The notes under the pieces were generated by a model. It searched no databases. It worked only from the letters and a program-made list of their open reading frames with translations, and was not told the origin of the DNA. Made by a program: the position numbers and the translations under genes. Source: Pelagibacterales bacterium SAG-MED01 (lineage in GTDB: Bacteria; Pseudomonadota; Alphaproteobacteria; Pelagibacterales; Pelagibacteraceae). From it: DNA of 64,000 nucleotides. Of this stretch, positions 33,651-37,906 are shown in pieces. Each line of letters opens with the position of its first letter. The first letter of the stretch is position 1. The stretch is taken from the NCBI GenBank assembly GCA_014654455.1, contig JACWCY010000001.1, forward strand, positions 120,001-184,000, given 5' to 3'.

Positions 33651-34332
33651 AATTATTTTTTTAGCTTGTGATACTTCCAATTTAAGTGAAATAAAAAGAA
33701 TAATTAAAAAGACTGAAACTAATAAACTTCAAATTATTCCAAAATTTGGATTGCAACTTTTTTATTCTAAAAATGGAAGAAAATTTTTAGAAAATTTTAA
33801 AAAAGATTTTTGGTTAGATTTAAAAATAAATGATATTCCTCAAACTGCGCTGTCTGCTATTGATAGTATAAAGGATTTAAAAAGATGTAAGTATATAACA
33901 GTTCATGCAAATGGTGGCCTTGAAATGTTAAAAGCTATTAAAGAAAAAACTAAAAAAATTAATAAAAATATAAAACTATTGGGTGTTACAGTTTTAACAA
34001 GCCTTAATAACAAATCACTAAGAGAAATAGGTCATACTAGAAATATAGAAACGCTAGTATTAAAACAAGCAGGTCTCATAAAAAAGTCAGGCTGTGAGGG
34101 AATAATTTGCTCAGCAAGAGAGTCACATTTTGTGAGAAAAAAATTTAAAAACTTGTTTATAGTAACTCCTGGAATAAGATTACCAGGTGACAGCGCCAAT
34201 GATCAATCAAGAGTAATGACGCCAAATGATGCTTTTAAAAATAAAGTTTCTGGGATTGTGATGGGAAGATCATTAATTAGAGGAAATATAAAAAATAATA
34301 TTCAAAGATTAATTGATCACCTAAATAAATGA
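33637..34332 (+). CDS. pyrF: orotidine 5'-phosphate decarboxylase
   Basis: Last step of UMP synthesis. The catalytic charge network is D-x-K-x-x-D, seen as DLKINDIPQT; the usual His after K-x is Asn here. TPGIRLPG...DQSRVMTP forms the phosphate-binding part. 231 aa. It begins inside the ihfB 3' end and its stop overlaps the trpF ATG (ATGA), so the genes are probably co-translated. Confidence 0.93.
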   Translation: MMKNKIIFLACDTSNLSEIKRIIKKTETNKLQIIPKFGLQLFYSKNGRKFLENFKKDFWLDLKINDIPQTALSAIDSIKDLKRCKYITVHANGGLEMLKAIKEKTKKINKNIKLLGVTVLTSLNNKSLREIGHTRNIETLVLKQAGLIKKSGCEGIICSARESHFVRKKFKNLFIVTPGIRLPGDSANDQSRVMTPNDAFKNKVSGIVMGRSLIRGNIKNNIQRLIDHLNK

Positions 34333-34958
34333 TCAAAGGATCTAAAATCTGTGGGGTCTCAGATCTTGATACCCTTAATTTTATAATTAATCATCCATAT
34401 CCACCTCAATTTATTGGTTTCATTTGTAACTATAAAAAAAGCTCAAGATACGTTGAGATTGAAAAACTAAACAAACTATTAGCATTAGATAAAAAAAAAT
34501 CTAATTTTGTAGCAGTATTAGTAAAACCTGATGAAGATATTTTAGAAAAAATTAAACATCTACCCTTTGATTACTACCAAATTTACGATTGCTCACCTGA
34601 AGAAATAAAAATAATTAAAGAAAGATATAATAAAAAAATTATTACCGCTTTAACAATAAGGAATGAAAGCGATGTTCAAAAGTATCTTTTGTTCTCTGAA
34701 ATAACCGATATTTATTTGTTTGATAGCAAAGGCTACGAAAAGAGTATGACTTTTGATCACAAGCTTATTCAAAACATAAAGATTAATAAGCCATTAATGA
34801 TAGCGGGTAATATTCAAGTAAATGATAATCTTGAAAATTATAAAAAAATAGCAGATATTATAGATATATCTGGGGGTCTTGAGACTTCTGGGATAAAAGA
34901 TAAATCCAAAATAGATATATTTTTAAACAAAGTAGAACAAATACATAATGAAACTTAA
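34329..34958 (+). CDS. trpF: phosphoribosylanthranilate isomerase
   Basis: Third step of tryptophan synthesis after anthranilate. The catalytic Cys is in KICGVSD (residues 7-13) and the phosphate-binding end reads ISGGLETSGIKDKSKI. 209 aa. Sequence between these anchors is divergent and Lys/Ile-rich. Its ATG overlaps the pyrF stop, and it overlaps trpB by 11 bp, so it belongs to the trpF-trpB-trpA block. Confidence 0.88.
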   Translation: MIKGSKICGVSDLDTLNFIINHPYPPQFIGFICNYKKSSRYVEIEKLNKLLALDKKKSNFVAVLVKPDEDILEKIKHLPFDYYQIYDCSPEEIKIIKERYNKKIITALTIRNESDVQKYLLFSEITDIYLFDSKGYEKSMTFDHKLIQNIKINKPLMIAGNIQVNDNLENYKKIADIIDISGGLETSGIKDKSKIDIFLNKVEQIHNET

Positions 34959-36171
34959 AAGGGGAATTCCATTAATTGATCAACATGATCAGCATGGCTT
35001 CTGGGGTGGTAAATTTGGAGGAAGCTTTATTCCTGAAACTTTAAAAAAACCTGTAGAAGATTTAACAAATGAATTTAAAAAACTGAGAAAAGACAAAAAA
35101 TTTCTAAAGAAAAGAGATTTTTATTTTAAAAATTATATTGGGACTCCTACTTCATTTATAAAACTCGATAATCTAACAAATTATCTAGGAGGTGCTCAAA
35201 TTTGGGCAAAGGTTGTTTCAGAGGCTAATGGAGGGGCTCATAAAATTTATGGGGCCACTGTTCACTGTTTGATTGCAAAAAGTTTGGGGAAAAAATATAT
35301 CGTTGGTGATACTGGCGCTGGTTATGCTGGAAAAATGCTCAGTATGGCAGCTAAAAAATTTGGTCTAAAATGTAAAATTTTTATGGGTGCTAAAGACATT
35401 AAGAGACAAAGACCAAATGTTATAGCTATGAAAAAAAATGGAGCTGAAATAGTTCCTGTTTATTCTGGTAGTCAAACACTAGTTGATGCCGTTAGTGAGT
35501 GCATGAGGTATTGGGTTTCAAATTGTGATAACACTCATATGTGTGTTGGAAGTACAGTTGGTCCAAATATATTTGTTAAAATCTGTGGCTGGAGTACCGC
35601 ACAAATCTCTAAAGAATTAAAAGTTCAATTAAAGTCAAAATTTAAAAAAATTCCAAACAAAATAAAACTAATTAATTGTGTTGGTGGAGGTAGTTCTGCT
35701 TATGGTTTTTGGAGTGAATTTATTGATTATGATAAAAAGCAAATTGAATTAATTGGTGTAGAAGCAGGTGGACCAAAAAAATCAAAGCTTCATGCGGCCC
35801 CATTAAGCAAAAATGCTAAAATTGGAATTTTACATGGAGCAGCATCTTATCTTTGTCAAAATAATGAAGGACAAATCAATGATACAGAGTCTATAAGTGC
35901 TGGATTAGATTACCCAGGTGTTAGCCCTATTCATTGTTTTTTAAAAGATACTAAAAGAGCAAGATACACTTATGCTACAGATGAAGAAGCTCTTGATGCA
36001 CATGTGATGGTAACAAAATACGAAAATTTAAATCCAAGTTTAGAGCCCAGTCATGCATTTGCAGAAGCAATAAAAATTGCACCTAAATTAAGCAAAGATA
36101 CTATCATCATTGTTAATTCTTGTGGAGACGCAAAAAAGGACAGGGATATTTTAAAAGAAAGATTGGGTTAA
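34948..36171 (+). CDS. trpB: tryptophan synthase beta chain, divergent
   Basis: Condenses indole with serine to tryptophan using PLP. The PLP lysine is K99 in GGAHKIYG, the phosphate cup is GGGSSA (246-251), and SISAGLDYPGVSP is well kept. Several normally invariant sites differ: EDLNHTGAHK is reduced to VSEANGGAHK, the catalytic ETGAGQHG is D121-TGAGYAG, and the C-terminal NLSGRGDKD is NSCGDAKKD. 407 aa, full length, in operon with trpA. It could be a lineage-specific TrpB or a relative with another substrate; synteny favours TrpB. Confidence 0.85.
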   Translation: MKLKRGIPLIDQHDQHGFWGGKFGGSFIPETLKKPVEDLTNEFKKLRKDKKFLKKRDFYFKNYIGTPTSFIKLDNLTNYLGGAQIWAKVVSEANGGAHKIYGATVHCLIAKSLGKKYIVGDTGAGYAGKMLSMAAKKFGLKCKIFMGAKDIKRQRPNVIAMKKNGAEIVPVYSGSQTLVDAVSECMRYWVSNCDNTHMCVGSTVGPNIFVKICGWSTAQISKELKVQLKSKFKKIPNKIKLINCVGGGSSAYGFWSEFIDYDKKQIELIGVEAGGPKKSKLHAAPLSKNAKIGILHGAASYLCQNNEGQINDTESISAGLDYPGVSPIHCFLKDTKRARYTYATDEEALDAHVMVTKYENLNPSLEPSHAFAEAIKIAPKLSKDTIIIVNSCGDAKKDRDILKERLG

Positions 36172-36176
36172 AGATA

Positions 36177-36977
36177 ATGGCTTCTTTATTAAAACAAGCA
36201 TTTCAAAATGCAAAAAGTGAAAATAGACCTGCTCTACTAACATATACTGTTGCGGGTGATAATAATAAAAAGAAGTCACTAGAAATTCTTAAATCGATTT
36301 CTAATTATGCAGATATTTGTGAACTAGGGTTTCCTCACAACACTCCAATAGCTGATGGAGGACAAATTCAAACAAGCGCATATAGAGCAATAAAAAATGG
36401 AATTAAAATCAATGATATTTTTTCAATAGTAAAAAATTTTAAAAAATCAAAAAAAACTAAACCCATTATTTTAATGGGTTATTATAATATGATCTTTCAA
36501 TATAATGAAAATAAATTTATTACGAAATGTAAAGAATCTAAGGTTGATGGATTAATTGTAGTAGACTTGCCTTATCCAGAAAATAAGATCTTTGCATCAA
36601 AATGTAAAAAAAATAAAATTAATTATATACAGCTCGTTTCGCCTACAACATCAAAATTAAGATTAAAAAAAATTATCAAAGATTCACATGATATGATTTA
36701 TTATATAAGTATGTTATCTACTACAGGTGGAAAATTGAAGGTTTCACCAAAAAAAATATTAAAAGAATACACAAAAATTAAAAATCAAAATAAATCAAAA
36801 AATGTTGTAATTGGATTTGGTATTACAGAAAAAACAATAAAATCATTAAAAAAAGCTGATGGATTGGTTGTTGGAAGTGCAATTTGCAAAGAAATAACGA
36901 ATTCAATAAAAAAAAGACAAAATGCTGTCATAAATGTTAGTAATTTAGTTAAGAGATTAAAAAATAAAATTAAATGA
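36177..36977 (+). CDS. trpA: tryptophan synthase alpha chain, divergent
   Basis: Cleaves indole-3-glycerol phosphate to indole for TrpB. From ATG 36177 (266 aa) the catalytic residues fall at E49 (ICELGFP) and D60 (PIADG), the same numbers as in the enteric enzyme. Neighbouring signature residues differ: the PFSDP of most enzymes is PHNTP, and the SGVTG loop is LSTTGG. GFGI of the phosphate site is intact. An open frame continues upstream to 36120 inside trpB but is not needed. It overlaps accD by 4 bp. Confidence 0.88.
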   Translation: MASLLKQAFQNAKSENRPALLTYTVAGDNNKKKSLEILKSISNYADICELGFPHNTPIADGGQIQTSAYRAIKNGIKINDIFSIVKNFKKSKKTKPIILMGYYNMIFQYNENKFITKCKESKVDGLIVVDLPYPENKIFASKCKKNKINYIQLVSPTTSKLRLKKIIKDSHDMIYYISMLSTTGGKLKVSPKKILKEYTKIKNQNKSKNVVIGFGITEKTIKSLKKADGLVVGSAICKEITNSIKKRQNAVINVSNLVKRLKNKIK

Positions 36978-37906
36978 ATTGGATTACTAAAATTATTAAA
37001 GCAGGTGAAAAAATTAAATCTGCTATTCATAAAAGAGCAACTAAAGAAGATATAGCTAATAGTGATTGGACTTCATGTTGTAAAGGACCAATTTTAAAAA
37101 AAGATTTAGAAGAAAATCTTTGGGTTTGTCCAGATTGTAACAAGCATCATCGGATTACACCTAAACAAAGATTTGATATTTTTTTTGGAAAAAATAATTA
37201 TGAGATATTTCAAACCCCAATCCCAAAAGATGATCCCTTGAACTGGACAGATACAAAATCTTACAAAGATAGATTAAAAAGTGCCAGAAAAAAAACTAAT
37301 ATGAAATGTGGGATGATGGTTGTTTCTGGATCAATTAATAATATTAAAATTACCGCGGTAGCTTCTGATTTTAATTTTTTAGGTGCCTCAATGGCCGCAG
37401 CAGAAGGTGAGGCTTTTTTATATGCTGTACAATACGCTATAGAAAATAAGACTCCATTTTTATGTTTTAGTTCAGGTGGAGGAATGCGTATGATGGAGAG
37501 TTTAATCTCGTTATCCCAAATGACCAGAACAACTCTTGCAATAAATGATCTTAAAGATAACAATCTTCCTTATTTGGTTTGTTTAACTGACCCAACTGCT
37601 GGAGGGATTACAGCTTCGTATGCTATGTTAGGTGACATTCATATAGCAGAGTCAAATCACGCACTAATAGCTTTTGCGGGAGCTAGAGTTATTCAAGGAA
37701 CCGTTAAAGAGGAGCTCCCAGAAGGGTTTCAAAAAAGTTCTTATGTTCAAAAAACAGGTTTTGTAGATCTAATAGCAGATAGAAAAGAACTTTCTGAAAA
37801 AATAGGAATTTTATTATCGATATTGTTAAAGAAAAATTCTGCTATAAGCACTGATGAAAATGAAACTACAGAAAATACTCAGTCGCTTTCTAAAATTGCA
37901 TCCTAA
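36974..37906 (+). CDS. accD: acetyl-CoA carboxylase carboxyltransferase beta subunit
   Basis: Partner of AccA in malonyl-CoA formation. The crotonase core has FSSGGGMRMMES and TDPTAGGITASYAMLGD. The N-terminal zinc ribbon normally has Cys at four positions; aligned to this protein these would be 33, 36, 52 and 55, but residue 33 is Thr and the sequence reads TSCCKGP with an extra Cys at 35, then VCPDCN. Zinc binding may use C35 or be altered. 310 aa. The trpA-accD-folC order is common in Proteobacteria; folC overlaps its end by 53 bp. Confidence 0.93.
   Translation: MNWITKIIKAGEKIKSAIHKRATKEDIANSDWTSCCKGPILKKDLEENLWVCPDCNKHHRITPKQRFDIFFGKNNYEIFQTPIPKDDPLNWTDTKSYKDRLKSARKKTNMKCGMMVVSGSINNIKITAVASDFNFLGASMAAAEGEAFLYAVQYAIENKTPFLCFSSGGGMRMMESLISLSQMTRTTLAINDLKDNNLPYLVCLTDPTAGGITASYAMLGDIHIAESNHALIAFAGARVIQGTVKEELPEGFQKSSYVQKTGFVDLIADRKELSEKIGILLSILLKKNSAISTDENETTENTQSLSKIAS

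Follow-up and report, generated by a model that had tools for sequence, protein, structure and literature searches.

The 64,000-nucleotide window analysed here (Pelagibacterales bacterium SAG-MED01, assembly GCA_014654455.1, contig JACWCY010000001.1, positions 120,001 to 184,000, forward strand) encodes a tryptophan synthase, made of TrpB and TrpA, which has changed at several residues that are invariant in the enzymes of related bacteria. These residue changes are the order-wide standard of SAR11 and not a peculiarity of this genome. We propose, with a probability of roughly 0.4, that SAR11 relies on a sole tryptophan synthase that works without the charged alphaD56-betaK167 contact, of which the TrpA side is important to the activity of the Salmonella complex, and uses an aspartate to activate indole, and that its trpFBA locus is an exchange site for whole trpBA pairs, each breaking a different part of the enzyme's network: the inter-subunit contact in the main type and in a rarer type named altY, the betaR141-D305 pair in another rarer type named altX. 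SAR11 bacteria are among the most abundant bacteria in the ocean. Tryptophan synthase serves as a reference in the study of substrate channelling and of allostery between subunits; its textbook rules derive from enzymes with E109, D56, K167, R141, R379 and D305, all invariant in our outside sample. Several of these rules are broken in SAR11, in an enzyme that belongs to primary metabolism and occurs in a single copy; others are broken by rarer pairs within the order.

Residue changes in TrpB and TrpA

Residues were assigned by alignment to the E. coli proteins (NC_000913) and carry E. coli/Salmonella numbers; the features below are given in window coordinates, with the protein's own numbers for single residues of TrpB.

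34948-36171, + strand: trpB, beta chain of a SAR11-type tryptophan synthase (407 aa) (TIGR00263, PDB match, dN/dS)
35242-35244, + strand: lysine K99 (=K87) that binds pyridoxal 5'-phosphate (PLP), kept (alignment to E. coli TrpB)
35308-35328, + strand: DTGAGYA (D121 to A127) in place of ETGAGQH; E109D, Q114Y and H115A, with TGAG kept (alignment)
35404-35406, + strand: R153 (=R141), partner of D321 in the salt bridge that closes beta, kept (alignment)
35482-35484, + strand: V179 (=K167), on TrpB's side (COMM domain) of the alphaD56-betaK167 contact that is lost (alignment; PMC6608616)
35908-35910, + strand: D321 (=D305), kept (alignment)
36121-36141, + strand: CGDAKKD (C392 to D398) in place of SGRGDKD; R379D and D381K unusual, K382 and D383 kept (alignment)
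36177-36977, + strand: trpA, alpha chain of a SAR11-type tryptophan synthase (266 aa) (TIGR00262, PF00290)
36321-36323, + strand: TrpA E49, catalytic, kept (alignment)
36333-36347, + strand: loop L2, PFSDP changed to PHNTP, with T56 (36342-36344) on TrpA's side of the TrpB contact that is lost (alignment)
36354-36356, + strand: TrpA D60, catalytic, kept (alignment)
36717-36728, + strand: loop L6, S181-T182-T183-G184 in place of GVTG; G181S, with T183 and G184 kept (alignment)

In brief, the residues replaced in TrpB are E109 by D, Q114 by Y and H115 by A (own numbers Y126-A127), K167 by V, N171 by S (S183), N236 by S (S250), R379 by D (D394) and D381 by K (K396), next to a cysteine at 377 (C392) and the retained K382 (K397); H86, K87, T110-G113, R141, R175, S235, D305 and E350 are also retained. 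In TrpA, F54 is replaced by H, S55 by N, D56 by T, G181 by S and V182 by T, and E49, P53, P57, D60, Q65, Y102, N104, Y175, T183, G184, GFG211-213 and S235 are retained. Except for Glu109, the core residues for the alpha reaction and for PLP chemistry are unchanged. The initial annotation, made from the sequence, had pointed to the preserved PLP lysine, to an aspartate at the place of the catalytic glutamate of TrpB, and to a TrpA that keeps E49 and D60 next to PHNTP and LSTTGG; the alignment bears out all three.

The changed type is the standard one in SAR11

A search of 397 genomes of the order gave a trpB match at E 1e-30 or better in 361 genomes, 341 of which score in the range of the window's type (a hand count that includes some fragments); the 20 outside this range comprise 14 genomes of the window's family and six of the other family. 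Sequences were read for part of the matched genomes. The residue comparison as a whole counted 251 rows, or 233 after removal of 18 duplicates identical in both trimmed TrpB and trimmed TrpA; one genome can occur twice among them, as do the window and locus L006, which are the same. The main type accounts for 156 rows. At readable positions, its TrpB has H86, K87, D109 and T110-G113 in 151/151 rows, D305 and E350 in 152/152 and S171 in 153/153, and positions 109, 114 and 115, in or beside the substrate loop, are non-canonical in all 151 readable rows. Its TrpA has E49 in 152/152 rows, Y175 and T183 in 153/153, GFG211-213 in 154/154 and Ser181 in 152/153. Variation is found at beta379 (D, K, N or T) and at alpha56 (T, A or C).

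The exact codon pattern for DTGAGYAG is present in 291 of 387 genomes of the order, and the reversed control pattern was absent among the matches listed. Some genomes have main-type scores without this pattern, for example all seven matched genomes of genus g9. Six pattern-free genomes were read, two of them from g9: Asp109, R141 and D305 are found in all six, together with V or I at 167 and T or A at alpha56; residues 114-115 vary (YN, MA, MQ, MN), and Ser181 is present in five of them and Gly181 in one. Since Asp109 occurs in every readable main-type row and in these six further genomes, it is not a sequencing error.

The outside sample consists of E. coli, 25 loci of the class and 30 loci of the phylum (n=56); these are best matches to SAR11 queries in one phylum rather than a random draw. 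E109, R141, K167, D305 and R379 are invariant in all 56 TrpB, none of which has Asp109, and D56 and G181 are invariant in the 49 readable TrpA. N236, replaced in the SAR11 motif GGGSS of the PLP phosphate site, is likewise present in 56/56 rows, and the tunnel residues 279, 280 and 306 of the window's TrpB (L, H and Y) are as usual in the outside rows. The outside enzymes do vary at Q114 (M in 3/56), N171 (S in 1/56) and TrpA D60 (E in 4/49). The description of the changed residues as normally invariant thus holds for E109, K167, R379, D56 and G181 but not for Q114, and SCGDAKKD in place of SGRGDKD is odd for R379D and D381K but not for Cys377, an ordinary residue found in 33 of the 56 outside TrpB. 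The 25 class loci beyond the order are not of the SAR11 kind: all have ETGAGQH, K167, GRGDKD and TrpA D56, and the best class matches beyond the order are only 45-46% identical, which rules out ordinary alphaproteobacterial variation. In a scan of named genomes with the trpB alignment, the best 80 of 534 confirmed matches all belong to Pelagibacteraceae, Pelagibacterales or Ca. Pelagibacter. The changes are not special to this TrpAB pair, being present throughout the order.

No trpB match was obtained in 36 of the 397 genomes. Sixteen of these were examined: 14 also gave no TrpA match, one has a whole TrpA and one a TrpA fragment; indole-3-glycerol-phosphate synthase (IGPS) was present in all four trpB-free genomes tested. 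The absence of trpB is most simply explained by assembly gaps, real loss being the other possibility. In another genome (locus L068, G294 C11:12475-13623), the trpB match contains two TGA and four TAA codons and is apparently partly out of frame.

A probable sole and working tryptophan synthase

Both chains are recognised by family models. TrpB scores 393.2 bits against the equivalog model TIGR00263 (cut-off 392.45, cleared by less than 1 bit), and TrpA scores 208.9 bits against TIGR00262 (cut-off 102.35), with E 7.3e-67 for PF00290. The best PDB sequence match of TrpB is 5ey5_B (E 5.4e-101), the closest PDB sequences to both chains come from ordinary TrpB and TrpA, and identity to the E. coli proteins is 39.5% for TrpB and 26.7% for TrpA.

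In the source genome (1.17 Mb, completeness 95%), the only PF00290 match is this TrpA and there are four PALP matches, three of them in other proteins, whose matched stretches carry the names cysteine synthase A, diaminopropionate ammonia-lyase and threonine synthase; these family searches found no second or canonical trpBA in the genome. Furthermore, trpE, trpG, trpD and trpC are adjacent at L141 1795-5612, this trpC lying under the NCBIfam cut-offs and above the Pfam IGPS cut-off. Compared with six near relatives (91-96% TrpB identity), the ratio of nonsynonymous to synonymous substitution rates (dN/dS) is 0.037-0.062 for TrpB and 0.046-0.106 for TrpA. Both genes, which the initial annotation described as intact, are under purifying selection. 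As no other TrpA or TrpB was found, trpEGDC are present and selection is purifying, the pair most likely makes tryptophan; very probably it is the cell's only tryptophan synthase, a working one of the SAR11-standard type. We infer that it would combine indole-3-glycerol phosphate and serine into tryptophan, with channelling between the subunits and with each subunit activating the other.

Rarer pairs and probable exchange at the trpFBA site

Two further types of pair occur in the window's order at the same site: altX in nine loci (L087-L095; TrpB 36-41% identical to that of E. coli) and altY in six (L096-L101; 35-36%). In all 15 loci pyrF lies upstream and accD downstream, and trpF lies between them in 14; in L096, trpF was not found between pyrF and accD. 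The other family has a pair named f2alt, kin to altX, in three loci (L084-L086) and a canonical pair in three (L081-L083). The TrpB and TrpA trees give the same main, altX, f2alt and altY groups, and the stems of the SAR11 clade are long (0.89 for TrpB, 1.15 for TrpA). In altX, beta305 is Q, T or N and TrpA D60 is replaced by E; altY has ETGASMN or ETGASMH.

The eight altX loci of the window's genus have a trpF that is 53-67% identical to the window's, which is the range of its relatives, and a TrpB that is only 35-39% identical, so trpBA looks to have been exchanged as a unit. One altX genome (G012) is a single contig with an estimated completeness of 100%. Among the matches listed, none outside exceeded 51% identity for altX (289 class genomes) or 42% for altY (397 phylum genomes), and therefore no donor is named. 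Phage carriage was not found with queries for the main, altX and altY pairs, of which the two single-protein ones reach close relatives only. The altY TrpB of L096 scores 316.1 bits against TIGR00263, under the cut-off of 392.45; as this altY TrpB misses the equivalog cut-off and the window's TrpB clears it by less than 1 bit, automatic annotation may miscall tryptophan auxotrophy.

At this site trpF identity drops to 30-37% between genera, and L098, L100 and L101, altY loci from the same genus as the window, also have such a trpF. The stretch from pyrF to folC as a whole seems to exchange genes readily.

The inter-subunit contact and the closing salt bridge

The equivalent of alphaAsp56 contacts a COMM lysine in a mycobacterial structure, and changing Asp56 in the complex leads to a loss of activity (PMC6608616). 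Residues of the alpha-beta interface are mostly conserved or co-evolved (PMC8187860). In its closed state the beta subunit has the R141-D305 salt bridge, Glu109 activates N1 of indole, and activation of alpha by serine at the beta site is roughly 30-fold (PMC9512447).

In all 226 readable pairs alpha56 and beta167 change jointly, K at beta167 accompanying every acid at alpha56 and no non-acid: (i) T, A or C with V or I in 156 main-type pairs (150/150 rows and the six pattern-free genomes), (ii) T with L in 6/6 altY, (iii) E with K in 12/12 altX and f2alt, and (iv) D with K in 52/52 canonical pairs of the other family and of the outside sample. The R141-D305 pair is complete in the 150 main-type rows with both residues readable and in 56/56 outside rows. 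It is broken in all 12 altX and f2alt rows (R-Q, R-T, K-N or L-N); in altY it is K-D in 6/6 and could still pair. As read from the alignment, the main type retains the closing pair without the inter-subunit charges, and the reverse holds for altX and f2alt. If the proposed reading is true, nature has dissected the two networks separately.

The initial annotation had supposed that the changes lie in parts of each chain that communicate with the other, and the published L2-COMM contact indeed has alpha56 on one side and beta167 on the other. It had also supposed that the changes are compensatory, which the joint change in 226/226 pairs supports and the small number of evolutionary events, one or two, does not. 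These counts are of sequences, not of events. A tree was built from 40 joined TrpB and TrpA rows with the alpha56 and beta167 columns removed. By parsimony, the two positions have two changes each, which fall on shared branches. Compensation between the two positions is suggested by the alignment, over one or two events. Covariation as a statistical claim was rejected, with one well-supported independent pair and p 0.183 in the approximately unbiased (AU) test. An AlphaFold2 model from a shallow alignment was dropped (mean predicted local distance difference test score 44.2).

Proposed mechanism and alternative explanations

In the proposed mechanism, TrpA would cleave indole-3-glycerol phosphate using E49 and D60, and indole would move through the tunnel with L, H and Y at 279, 280 and 306 to TrpB, which would convert serine to the aminoacrylate on K87-PLP. 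D109, whose side chain has one carbon less than that of glutamate, would substitute for Glu109 in activating the indole nitrogen, within a pocket reshaped by the changes at 114 and 115, and the beta subunit would still close via R141-D305. The charged alphaD56-betaK167 contact between L2 and COMM would be replaced on both sides by an uncharged pair (T, A or C with V or I), and with the charged contact lost, the active sites would be coupled by another contact or less tightly. Should coupling survive without this salt bridge, the alpha-beta signal would be incompletely described by the current model; should coupling be lost, SAR11 would show that an oligotroph can live without it.

Several observations weigh against this reading. 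The uncharged alpha-beta contact is putative, being read from an alignment. Even among canonical enzymes, contacts between loop L2 and COMM are absent in a Francisella structure, and Streptococcus has a main-chain one only (PMC6608616). TrpA D60 is replaced by E in one of 152 main-type rows. Compared with five farther relatives, dN/dS is 0.060-0.152 for TrpB and 0.067-0.365 for TrpA, with dS saturated. Finally, the independent joint changes number one on well-supported branches and two on all branches, and a tree that unites main type and altY in a single clade has a log-likelihood lower by only 4.9 and is not rejected (p-AU 0.183). The joint loss may therefore be a single event, and drift is possible.

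Under a rival explanation, relaxed constraint, low tryptophan flux in a small streamlined genome would have let formerly critical regulatory residues drift, and the changes at alpha56 and beta167 would reflect the decay of a contact without further importance rather than compensation. The one or two events of joint loss would fit it, as would the later variation at alpha56 (T, A, C) and beta379 (D, K, N, T) and the long SAR11 stems. We consider it unlikely, however, because the new residues are tightly held, with V or I at beta167 in 150/150 pairs, D109 in 151/151 rows and S171 in 153/153, and because TrpB dN/dS against near relatives is as low as given above. The uniformly non-canonical residues at 109, 114 and 115, of which Glu109 is the indole activator in known enzymes (PMC9512447), could instead mean that TrpB has shifted to another substrate (a nucleophile other than indole or another beta-activated amino acid) and that TrpA has adapted. 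This is very improbable: the genome has trpEGDCF, and no TrpA or TrpB besides this pair was found in it, a carboxylate is retained at 109 together with the TGAG loop, the tunnel residues and the catalytic residues of TrpA, and another trpBA stands in for the pair at the same site in 15 loci. The active-site changes, in a TrpB whose TrpA partner is still present, also recall the plant TSB-like pseudoenzyme (PMC12727527), and TrpB could by analogy be a non-catalytic activator of a TrpA that releases indole; this is scarcely credible for a protein with the PLP lysine, the GGGS of the PLP phosphate site, E350 and D305, in a genome where no second TrpB was found to make tryptophan.

Relation to known tryptophan synthases

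With the canonical TrpB1/TrpA of Salmonella, E. coli, P. furiosus and the reconstructed last bacterial common ancestor (LBCA, 5ey5), the SAR11 enzyme has in common the PLP lysine, R141, D305 and E350 of TrpB, E49, D60 and T183 of TrpA and the trpFBA operon; it differs from them by E109D, Q114Y, H115A, K167V, N236S and R379D in TrpB and by F54H, D56T and G181S in TrpA. TrpB2, the second TrpB of archaea and others, likewise lacks the TrpB1 lysine, K162 in P. furiosus, which is conserved in TrpB1 only and is equated here with K167 (PMC1854888). TrpB2 nevertheless has an arginine at D300 (=D305) and indels of its own, whereas SAR11 TrpB keeps the aspartate and scores 393.2 bits on the trpB model against 92.2 on the TrpB-like model. 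The naturally stand-alone plTrpB of Pelodictyon luteolum is also off the textbook, in its dependence on TrpA, and owes its stand-alone trait to six residues distal from the active site (PMC11917138).

The SAR11 trpB_1 cluster was already called distinct, early-branching and necessarily functional in a Sargasso Sea survey of 2008, whose authors argued for the functionality of trpB of P. ubique strain HTCC1062; the section of that survey on the SAR11 cluster does not deal with catalytic or interface residues, the TrpA sequence or alternative trpBA pairs (PMC2395257). A literature search, with most subscription journals outside its reach, found among the titles listed no analysis of these SAR11 residues or of trpBA exchange in SAR11, and found no paper on tryptophan synthase E109D. 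A 1992 study in Biochemistry reportedly dealt with an E109D mutant of the Salmonella enzyme. The SAR11 enzyme is thus partly known, as a sequence cluster, and the mechanistic angle is new.

Neighbouring genes

34329-34958, + strand: trpF, phosphoribosylanthranilate isomerase, first gene of the trpFBA run (PF00697, 72.1 bits, cut-off 22.7)

The overlap of 11 nt between trpF and trpB fits the operon proposed in the initial annotation. The start of trpA is the ATG six bases past the trpB stop; the TTG at 36120, listed by program as the open reading frame start, is an unlikely one. TrpA overlaps accD (36974-37906) by 4 nt. One genome of the order, a single contig, has its IGPS gene (trpC) divided between two overlapping frames at L136/L137 (G189 C1:930231-930997), which reflects a frameshift or an assembly error. 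In the accD of the window, the first zinc-ribbon CxxC reads CC (DWTSCCKGP), and a CC..CxxC pattern fits 149 of the 234 best accD matches. Between SAR11 genera, accD identity falls to about 40% in L102, where trpB is still 81% identical.

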